A stretch of 57,752 nt of DNA from Clostridiales bacterium GWD2_32_19 (GTDB taxonomy: Bacteria; Bacillota; Clostridia; Lachnospirales; UBA12420). The position numbers were made by a program, and so were the translations under genes. Positions 43,103 through 46,354 of the stretch are shown here, one piece after another. The DNA lies in contig MGOU01000033.1 in NCBI GenBank assembly GCA_001795385.1, positions 1 through 57,752 of the forward strand, written 5' to 3'. The notes below the pieces were generated by a model, which did not search any database, was not told where the DNA came from, and saw only the letters and a list, made by a program, of their open reading frames with translations. How positions within the stretch are numbered: position 1 is the first letter of the stretch; every line of letters begins with the position of its first letter.

Positions 43103-43152
43103 ATAAAAGCGCAAGCCCTTACATTCGCATATTGCTACTAGCAAGGACTTGC
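43103..43152 (-). promoter_or_regulatory. Attenuator-like hairpin before the ABC-F gene
   Basis: On the minus strand GCAAGTCCTT (43143-43152) pairs with AAGGGCTTGC (43111-43120) over a 22-nt loop. It is followed by GCTTTTATAGGAGG, i.e. a short T-run, then the ribosome site. Such 5'-UTR terminators are common for inducible ABC-F genes. The T-run is only four bases, so this is a candidate. Confidence 0.5.
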
Positions 43153-43261
43153 TGTTTATGTTTTCACCAATATGTTTCAAAAGGTAGGAATAAGGTTCCT
43201 TTGGTGCGATGTACTCGGTATTGTCCGTGAACAATAACCTCTCACTTGTTTATTGCACCAG

Positions 43262-43391
43262 AGCCCACACAGAACGGGCCGGAAAGATTTGTTACTGTTA
43301 GCATTGCCATTGTTGTTGTTACCCGCGAACGCCCCCGCATTAGTACCATTACTGTAGTTACCACCGCGAATGAAAAACGGATTCGTGCTTT
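43262..43391 (-). repeat. DGR template repeat (TR)
   Basis: The 130 bp align without gaps to 44799-44928. All 23 differences lie at positions that are A in this copy on the minus strand. In the frame of the variable gene it is rich in AAC/AAT codons (GGNYSNGTNAGAFAG, then NNNNGNANSNKS), the classic TR signature. It starts 41 bp after the reverse transcriptase stop codon and reads in the same frame. The ~110 bp beyond it (to 43153) contains ATTGTTCACGGACAAT and may be the structured RNA spacer needed for cDNA priming. Confidence 0.93.
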
Positions 43392-43431: not shown

Positions 43432-44463
43432 TTATTTACTTCTACTAAACCTGTACTGATCAAATATTCTGCATATTAGCATATGACTATTACAATGGAT
43501 GACATGTCCCCACCAGCTCATTACGCTTTTTGTTATTTCTTCTATTGTTATTCTATTATCTCTGTATAATTTTTGAAATATTTTCATTCTTCTCTTCATT
43601 CTTTTTTTACTTTGGTCTCTGAGTAGCATATGTGTTGGCCATATTCGGTATCCGCAAAAGCTAGCACCTTGGTTCACCTGAAAATAGTTTGTTTTACTGT
43701 TTAGCTCTAGCTTCAGCTCTTCTCTTAAAAAGATTGTTATCTTCTGTAAAGCTTCTTTTGCTTCTTCTTTTGTCTTAAATAGTATGACCCAGTCATCCAT
43801 ATACCTCACGAAATATTTAAGCTTGAGCTCGTGTTTTACGTACTTATCTAGCTCATTTAAATATATATTGGCATAATATTGTGATGTATAGTTTCCTATA
43901 GGTACTCCTACACTATCTTCATTGTGATATATAAATTCTTTTGTAAGCTCTAGTACTTTTTTATCTTTTATTTTTCTGCTAATTAGTCTATATATTATAT
44001 CATTATTTATATTAAAAAAGTATTTTCTTACGTCACATTTCAAAATGTAATAGTCATTTCCCTAATTTTTGCCCGCTTCTCTCATATATTGTCCGACTTG
44101 TTTGACTGCTTTATACGTTCCTTTTCCTTCTATACAAGCGTATGTATCTTTTATTAGCACTGGCACAAGGTATGGTTTTATAAACTCTTCTATGTACCAT
44201 TGATGCACTACTCTATCCTTATATGGTAGCGTTTTTATCAGTCTCTCTTTTGGTTCGAAAACTTTAAATTGTTTGTATTCTCCTATTTTGTATATGCCTT
44301 TCTTTAATTCTCTGCCAATATTTAATATATTATTTTCCAAGTCTATTTCAAATTTTATGACTTCACGTTTAAATCTTTTCCCTTTTCTTGCTCTTTTATG
44401 TGCTTGTAGTAGCTTTGTAAAAGTTAGCTTATCGTCAAACATGCTTCCTACTCTTTTTGGCAT
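43432..44463 (-). pseudogene. DGR reverse transcriptase, one reading frame interrupted by an in-frame TAG
   Basis: The frame runs from ATG 44463 to TAA 43432 (343 codons) with a single TAG at 44062-44064 (codon 134), between MREAGKN and GNDYYILKCDVRKYF. RT motifs on the distal side are intact: CDVRKYF (catalytic Asp144), the DGR-type VPIGNYTSQYYAN in place of QGxxxSP, YFVRYMDD (221-224) and FCGYRIWPTH. The proximal part (FKVFEPKERLIKTLPYKDRV) is also normal. Without read-through the product lacks its catalytic core; a TTG at 44043 could restart an incomplete protein. A TGG-to-TAG change, a sequencing error, or amber decoding are all possible. It overlaps the avd remnant by 16 bp. Confidence 0.9.
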
Positions 44464-44703
44464 AATACTTTCTCTATTCCACCTATGATGTTTCCAATCT
44501 CAACAAGCCTTCTTGACCACTCCATATAATTACTTTGTGATATATACCGTTATTTTTATCCCCGTATGTATATTCCTTTTCATATCTTGGATTAGCCCTT
44601 GTTTTTCTGATTTGGGGTATTTTACAAATAAGTTGTATGCATACTCCTGTAGGTCTGCCTGTTTTTGATAAAGTACAAATGAGTCTATTTTGCTTCTTGC
44701 CAA
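44448..44703 (-). pseudogene. avd: Decayed avd (DGR accessory protein), internally deleted and frameshifted
   Basis: From TTG 44703 (GGAGG upstream) the first frame gives SFVLYQKQADLQEYAYNLF and KYPKSEKQGLIQDMKRN, then stops at 44530. The next frame continues YISQSNYMEWSRRLVEIGN, IIGG to the TAG at 44448. These are the first and last helices of Avd, the four-helix-bundle partner of DGR reverse transcriptases. About 85 of the expected 110-125 codons remain, so the middle helices were deleted at a junction near 44545. Avd is required for mutagenic homing in characterised DGRs. Confidence 0.8.
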
Positions 44704-44791
44704 CTATTATCGCACCTCCATCATCCCTTATATTTTTTACGCCGCTTATGTCACTACCCCACTCAAATCTGTCCGTCGCAAGTTAGCAGTT

Positions 44792-46354
44792 TTAATTAAG
44801 CCCACACAGAACGGGCCGGAAAGATACGAGACTGACAGCAGAGCCAACGATGTCGCTACCCGCGAACGCCCCCGCACCAGCACCATCACCGTAGCGACCA
44901 CCGCGAACGAAAAACGGATACGTGCTATATGGAAAATCTTGGTAATCTGCATATCCTTGGAATGTACTTGTCCCTAAGTAAGAACTCATTACTTCATGTA
45001 ATGCCATTCCATCTGTTTGTAATAACGTTGTTCCTGTATATGTATAGTTTCCTGATTGCCCTAAGTCTGTGTTTACTGGTGATAGTGTCAGAGCATCTTT
45101 GTATTTTACTGCCGCTGTTACTAAGCTATTTCCATATGTTGCTAGATTTCCATTTCCGTTTGCTACGTAACTTGCTACATACTCCCATGCTCCACCATTT
45201 AAGTCATATATTCCATATGCGTTTCCTGTTGTGCTCATTTCCTTATTTGTTACGCTTGTATATACTGTTGCTACTGTACTACTTCCGCCTGTATAATAAC
45301 TAACATTATCGTTGATTCCGATTTCATCTCTATCTCTTATTGCTTCTGTTAGGTATGCTACTGCTCCCCATTCGCTGTTTTTCATCATGTGTGTGTCCAC
45401 TACTGCTGTATCACTACTTATTCCATATGTCGCACTATTTGTTGTCTGCATTGCTCTACATGCTGTATGTATTGCATCTACACTTATAGTTCTCCAGCTT
45501 GCTATTCCTGGTTTTACTTGTACTAGCCCTCCGTTACTACTTGCCTCATATTTTGCTACCCAGATTCCTGTTAGCTGCGCTCCTCCGAAGTTAAACGCTG
45601 GATGTACTTTATATGGTGTATTTGCATTTGATGCGTTTAAACTTGTATCATCTGTTGTGCCATTGCTATATTTTATCCATATTTTACTCGTTCCACTATT
45701 TTCTAATATGTTATATGTGTATCTTGGAATCCATACAAATAGACTTCCATCTGCTAGCTTTGCATTTGCCCATTTTTCATTGGCTACTCTGTCTGCTATA
45801 CTTTGATCTAGGTCTGCTCTGTAGTTATACCATGTTTTGTCGGTTATTTCCTGTGCTGTGGCATTTATAAAATCTGTTCCATTGAAGTTTAATGCTGTCA
45901 TTCCTGCGACTAGTTTCGGTTTATTGCACCCCATTACAGCATCATATTCAGAGCTCCCTTCAGTTGAGACACCACTGACTACACCTGTTACTGCCTCCCT
46001 TATTGGAGTTACTGTTACTGTTCCGTTTGTTACATTATATATCACACTATAGTCCTTGTTACCTGTTAGTGGGTTTGTAGGTATTTCTTTTATGTACCCC
46101 TTTGTTTCTAAATCATCTATCAGCTCTTCTCCAGTCGCTGGCATTGTATCTAGTGACAATAAATAGGCATTTGCTTGTGATTGGAGTGTCCCTACATTTT
46201 CATTATGTGCTATTTGTTTTGATGTTCCACTTTTGTTTATGAATATCGGTATTGCTATTGTTGCTAGTGCCGCTAGAATTACTAAAACTGCTAGTAACTC
46301 AAGTAATGTAAAGCCTTTCTTAGTATTTCTTTTAGTATCGTACATTTTTCTCAT
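44792..46354 (-). CDS. DGR variable protein: type IV pseudopilin-like N-terminus, C-type lectin/FGE-like C-terminus
   Basis: 520 aa. The class III signal KKG14|FTLLELLAVLVILA has cleavage after Gly14 and Glu at mature position 5, followed by a GspG-like stalk (QSQANAYLLSLDTMPATGEE, GYIKEIPTNPLTGNKDYSV). The C-terminal half (about 205-520) shows FVWIPRYTYNI, GIWVAKYEAS, NAYGIYDLNGGAWEYVASY and SFRPVLCG, the FGE-sulfatase/C-type-lectin fold of DGR variable proteins. Residues 476-519 are encoded by the variable repeat; 15 residues differ from the template-encoded version. It probably sits in or at the tip of a pilus or on the membrane and binds variable ligands. No type IVa pilus motor is in this window. 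GGGGG precedes the ATG. Confidence 0.92.
   Translation of the reverse strand: MRKMYDTKRNTKKGFTLLELLAVLVILAALATIAIPIFINKSGTSKQIAHNENVGTLQSQANAYLLSLDTMPATGEELIDDLETKGYIKEIPTNPLTGNKDYSVIYNVTNGTVTVTPIREAVTGVVSGVSTEGSSEYDAVMGCNKPKLVAGMTALNFNGTDFINATAQEITDKTWYNYRADLDQSIADRVANEKWANAKLADGSLFVWIPRYTYNILENSGTSKIWIKYSNGTTDDTSLNASNANTPYKVHPAFNFGGAQLTGIWVAKYEASSNGGLVQVKPGIASWRTISVDAIHTACRAMQTTNSATYGISSDTAVVDTHMMKNSEWGAVAYLTEAIRDRDEIGINDNVSYYTGGSSTVATVYTSVTNKEMSTTGNAYGIYDLNGGAWEYVASYVANGNGNLATYGNSLVTAAVKYKDALTLSPVNTDLGQSGNYTYTGTTLLQTDGMALHEVMSSYLGTSTFQGYADYQDFPYSTYPFFVRGGRYGDGAGAGAFAGSDIVGSAVSLVSFRPVLCGLN
44799..44928 (-). repeat. DGR variable repeat (VR)
   Basis: This is the 3' end of the variable gene, stopping 4 bp short of the stop codon's last base. 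The invariant 27-bp end (44799-44825), GC-rich with CGGCCCGTTCTGTGTGGGCT on the coding strand, is the likely initiation of mutagenic homing site. Variable codons cluster at residues 479-493 and 500-510. Confidence 0.93.

Follow-up and report, generated by a model that had tools for sequence, protein, structure and literature searches.

A recently active DGR with a nonsense-interrupted reverse transcriptase, probably in piecemeal decay, in a Clostridiales genome

The 57,752-nucleotide stretch of Clostridiales bacterium GWD2_32_19 that we analysed (the window) carries a diversity-generating retroelement (DGR) whose recent activity has very probably given way to piecemeal decay, with its reverse transcriptase (RT) disabled by a nonsense mutation. 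Among the observations that argue for decay are a TAG that is the sole stop in a conserved RT frame, an avd gene that is broken independently, and cassettes of a sister species that have decayed at different points. Set against it are the lack of other visible defects in the RT and a perfectly clean variable repeat (VR), which a low-level working RT would also give.

The RT gene, assigned by homology, profiles and predicted fold, occupies positions 43432 to 44463 of the minus strand and consists of 343 codons plus the final stop. An ATG at 44463 opens the frame and a TAA at 43434-43432 closes it; exactly one internal stop lies between them, the TAG at 44064-44062, which is codon 134 and falls in the loop before motif A as judged by frame reading, alignment and predicted fold. 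A TTG at 44043 shares the frame, 420 nt from the start, which bears out the first-pass annotation in its claim that both RT halves lie in the same frame with a single TAG between them. The TAG is known from one draft assembly (47 contigs) of one strain. Nine loci of its order and genus encode intact RTs with which it aligns across the TAG at 31-39% identity, over a span that begins at residues 5-15 and ends at residues 327-343. Because homology to intact RTs runs across the stop, the frame is, on sequence grounds, a real single gene interrupted once. In the protein read through the TAG, residues 1-341 hit the PHROG reverse-transcriptase family with 385 bits; Pfam RVT_1 is matched as well. The profile built from the RT and its relatives finds the BPP-1 DGR RT (8ub7) as its best solved sequence (hmmsearch E 7e-74), and the predicted fold (pLDDT 79) has the same DGR RT as its best PDB match (Foldseek TM 0.84/0.87), so that known DGR RTs are closest by both PDB sequence and fold. 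The protein also has IGNYTSQ and YMDD, which correspond to the (I/V/L)GxxxSQ and YxDD motifs expected of a DGR RT.

In the predicted fold, residue 134 ends a helix (116-134) right before the strand (139-145) that bears LKCDV, the first catalytic aspartate motif. The loop at the TAG can be regarded as variable because its length and sequence differ among the aligned relatives; the BPP-1 RT has a five-residue gap here. None of the nine intact relatives carries a stop at this position, and the column holds no conserved residue and no tryptophan in them, which lends no support to the change from TGG to TAG suggested earlier as an example. The earlier statement that all catalytic motifs are intact downstream holds for the palm motifs (LKCDVRKYF, IGNYTSQ, YMDD) but not for the fingers motifs; as these precede the TAG, a protein made from the downstream piece would be an incomplete RT. 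Conversely, a product ending at the TAG has, as read from the frame, 133 residues and lacks the active site. Besides the TAG, the RT shows no further visible defect. Neither the genus nor a set of 295 genomes from the order yielded a close intact orthologue; dN/dS is therefore not properly measurable, as just 36 codons of the RT start are comparable, 7 of them with synonymous and 4 with non-synonymous differences. Scans with the C-terminal half of the RT gave one distant match in genomes and none in viral contigs.

The template repeat (TR) lies at 43262 to 43389 and the VR at 44799 to 44926, both on the minus strand and both placed by the TR/VR alignment. When TR 43389-43262 is compared with VR 44926-44799, 22 of 128 columns are mismatched, and all 22 fall among the 32 TR adenines (hypergeometric P about 2e-17); at the 96 non-adenine positions there is no difference. 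A TR/VR pair with adenine-specific differences is expected of a DGR. Since none of the 96 non-adenine sites has changed, DGR activity was recent, and the adenine-only mismatches support the first-pass annotation in its view that the RT was active not long ago. If change is neutral, divergence since the last copying is at most about 3% (95% bound), a rough figure, as the VR is coding sequence. By way of comparison, the window shares 80-88% identity with the sister-species cassettes in the avd and non-coding sequence beside the VR.

The RT stop is accompanied by two further lesions of the cassette that had not been described with the TAG, a break in avd and a missing repeat after the VR. Between the target gene and the RT, avd is present as two out-of-frame pieces whose middle is missing. 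The N-terminal part (44530 to 44703, minus strand) encodes 57 aa and ends at an early TAA; Avd and bAvd profiles match the first half only. The C-terminal part (44448 to 44534, minus strand) lies in another frame, reads SNYMEWSRRLVEIGNIIGGIEKVLCQKE up to its stop and corresponds by alignment to the C-terminal end of intact Avds; none of 1000 shuffles scored as high. A search with Avd profiles found no match elsewhere in the genome. The window thus has no intact Avd. Many DGRs, though not all, have this protein; its lack here argues against present activity but leaves DGR ancestry unaffected.

Directly after the VR, alignment with three cassettes of the sister species (G001) shows that about 58 bp, including a 7-bp inverted repeat, are absent from the window at 44790 to 44792 (minus strand); all three sister-species cassettes keep them. 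Folding of this region gives a hairpin in the sister-species locus L090 (G001 C58) and in L032, and none in the window. Judged by position and shape, the missing repeat is likely the DGR target-site hairpin. A post-VR inverted repeat is common in DGRs, and its loss, too, speaks against present activity and not against DGR ancestry. In BPP-1, efficient retrohoming requires the inverted repeat after the VR (PMC3240598), and inactivation of Avd or RT reduces activity to background (PMC12875486). Carried over from BPP-1, these requirements suggest that the DGR of the window would likewise need both Avd and the hairpin.

On the other side of the RT, the base right after the TR end is the start of a full-length match to the Rfam model RT-14 (RF02921; 43261-43110, minus strand, 63.8 bits), which places a structured spacer beside the TR, as in DGRs. 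At nine further loci in the phylum (L152-L157, L159-L161), RT-14 starts no more than 7 nt from the TR end, TR/VR mismatches fall mostly or only at adenines, and an RT frame with SQ and YMDD motifs follows or overlaps the RNA. Because RT-14 starts at the TR end with an adjacent RT in these nine loci, it is probably the spacer scaffold of DGRs. This link would assign a function to an Rfam family and provide a handle for finding DGRs. The RT-14 region is still present in G001 C58, at 98% identity over 158 nt, despite the loss of the RT there. Over the 3' half of the TR together with RT-14 (L090 1894-2120 against window 43104-43330), identity is 97%, while it is about 78% for the target gene. Such conservation in a cassette that has no RT suggests either strong constraint until recently or recombination.

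The target gene (44792 to 46354, minus strand) encodes 520 aa, has a prepilin-type N-terminus (N_methyl PF07963; TIGR02532) and carries the VR at its 3' end. Its VR-bearing C-terminal part, the place of a C-type-lectin-like fold in a DGR target, has no Pfam or PDB match, and the structure model is unusable (mean pLDDT 32). The prepilin-type family to which it belongs is many-copied, with 23 matches in this genome (G000) and 25 in the sister species; besides the window gene, its loci include C9, C10, C20 and C47 of G000 and C14, C23, C40 and C58 of G001. In one member, a frame of 1744 residues, the C-terminal domain occurs as three tandem copies.

The sister species, a congener, has related targets in three cassettes, and these cassettes are decayed as well. 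C58 is the cassette orthologous to that of the window, with a target of 78% protein identity. Its avd remnant has an in-frame TAG, and a deletion fuses avd to the 3' half of the TR, so that the RT and the 5' half of the TR are gone. In C14, avd is reduced to a remnant and the RT to about 45 residues, and C40 keeps just the two ends of avd. As the break points differ among the cassettes, the losses look independent. A group II intron 3' end (RF00029; L090 28-102) abuts the start of the prepilin target at the end of contig C58.

This genome contains a second DGR RT remnant on C17, which is frameshifted and truncated and whose counterpart in the sister species (G001 C38) is intact. The C17 remnant (L035 2676-3009) adjoins another prepilin gene, and its frameshift lies in the same pre-motif-A loop as the window TAG. 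A DGR-like RT elsewhere in the order (G016 C20, L033 4224-4268) has a frameshift slightly upstream of this loop and is missing its N-terminal part. The intact RT of G001 C38 has as its neighbour an accessory protein (L034 2970-3650) that matches the Avd profile in its C-terminal part and by eye resembles MutS domain I in its N-terminal part. One further RT of this genome is of the group II intron type (QGGLISP motif) and is cut by a contig end. We therefore rejected an RT acting in trans, as the remaining RTs found are the eroded C17 remnant and the group II intron type; the searches of this genome yielded no further usable DGR RT.

Taken together, a chromosomal DGR comprising a target gene with its VR, avd, RT, TR and the RT-14 spacer RNA would have been functional until recently. 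Translation of the RT would now halt at codon 134, and because the resulting fragment has no active site, the TR could not be copied. Beside this stop, avd would have lost its middle and the VR its following inverted repeat. By analogy with BPP-1, these lesions would abolish retrohoming in this DGR, and we infer that the damage to the RT, avd and the post-VR region is recent and that the VR is now frozen.

The earlier annotation had offered three origins for the TAG: a recent nonsense mutation, which is best supported here; a sequencing error, which is possible; and a programmed or suppressed amber codon, which our data disfavour. A base-calling or consensus error in the draft assembly, with the RT actually intact, is the more serious of the alternatives but still unlikely. 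It would take one base only, in a draft genome of 47 contigs, and would agree with the well-kept remainder of the RT and the clean VR/TR pair, but it leaves unexplained the deletion in avd, the missing post-VR repeat and the parallel decay in the sister species. A split RT, in which the two halves cooperate after a restart of the downstream one at TTG 44043, is the least credible reading of all. The in-frame TTG lies 19 nt past the TAG, but by eye it has no well-spaced ribosome-binding site, translation from it would begin inside motif A (MKCDVRKYF), the product would be without the fingers motifs, and no working split RT was found among the relatives.

If the amber codon were programmed or suppressed, occasional read-through would yield a little full-length RT and keep mutagenesis throttled. 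The conserved sequence after the TAG and the position of the stop in a variable loop, which should accept most residues, would suit such a mechanism. However, TAG is an ordinary stop here, as it ends 11 of the 38 long non-overlapping ORFs in the window, and none of the nine intact relatives shares it at this site. For 30 of 33 tRNA matches in the genome, ARAGORN found no tRNA with a CUA anticodon in the surrounding locus; this set is incomplete, since tRNA-Ala, -Ile and -Gln were likewise not found. The only PylS match is below threshold (21 bits against a cut-off of 178). The check for a suppressor proposed with the first annotation therefore came out negative, within this incomplete tRNA set, for amber recoding by a tRNA-CUA, and for pyrrolysine by PylS. 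We found no literature on amber codons or read-through in DGRs. With avd and the post-VR repeat broken as well, we consider read-through highly improbable, and equally so a low-level hypermutation that would proceed through rare read-through without intact Avd or the usual hairpin, the stop serving as a throttle.

Recent piecemeal decay with a nonsense-disabled RT thus remains the preferred explanation. The window would then offer a snapshot of the death of a DGR, in which the record of mutagenesis in the VR is still clean while the RT, avd and the target site are already damaged, and the sister-species cassettes show later stages of the loss. It also advises caution: neighbouring parts should be checked before a single stop codon is read as regulation.

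A recently inactivated DGR with a nonsense-broken RT is already published as a kind. Schillinger et al. (2012; PMC3521204) described DGRs, for example in Ruminococcus gnavus ATCC 29149, whose RTs are broken by nonsense codons while VR and TR differ at adenines only, and put them down to very recent inactivation or to sequencing error. The window shows the same combination of a broken RT frame and a VR/TR pair free of non-adenine changes. Unlike those DGRs, it also has a damaged avd and post-VR inverted repeat, and related cassettes in the sister species decay in parallel. With the DGR of Bordetella phage BPP-1 (bRT in PDB 8ub7, Avd, TR and post-VR hairpin), the window shares the RT family and fold, the adenine-specific TR/VR differences and Avd, here as a remnant. 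In contrast to BPP-1, its target is chromosomal and prepilin-type, the TR and spacer lie downstream of the RT, and RT and Avd are broken. Treponema denticola isolates that are without RT and TR yet have target genes (PMC4891356) resemble the sister species, where the core machinery is lost and VR-bearing targets are left, whereas the window still has most of the DGR core.
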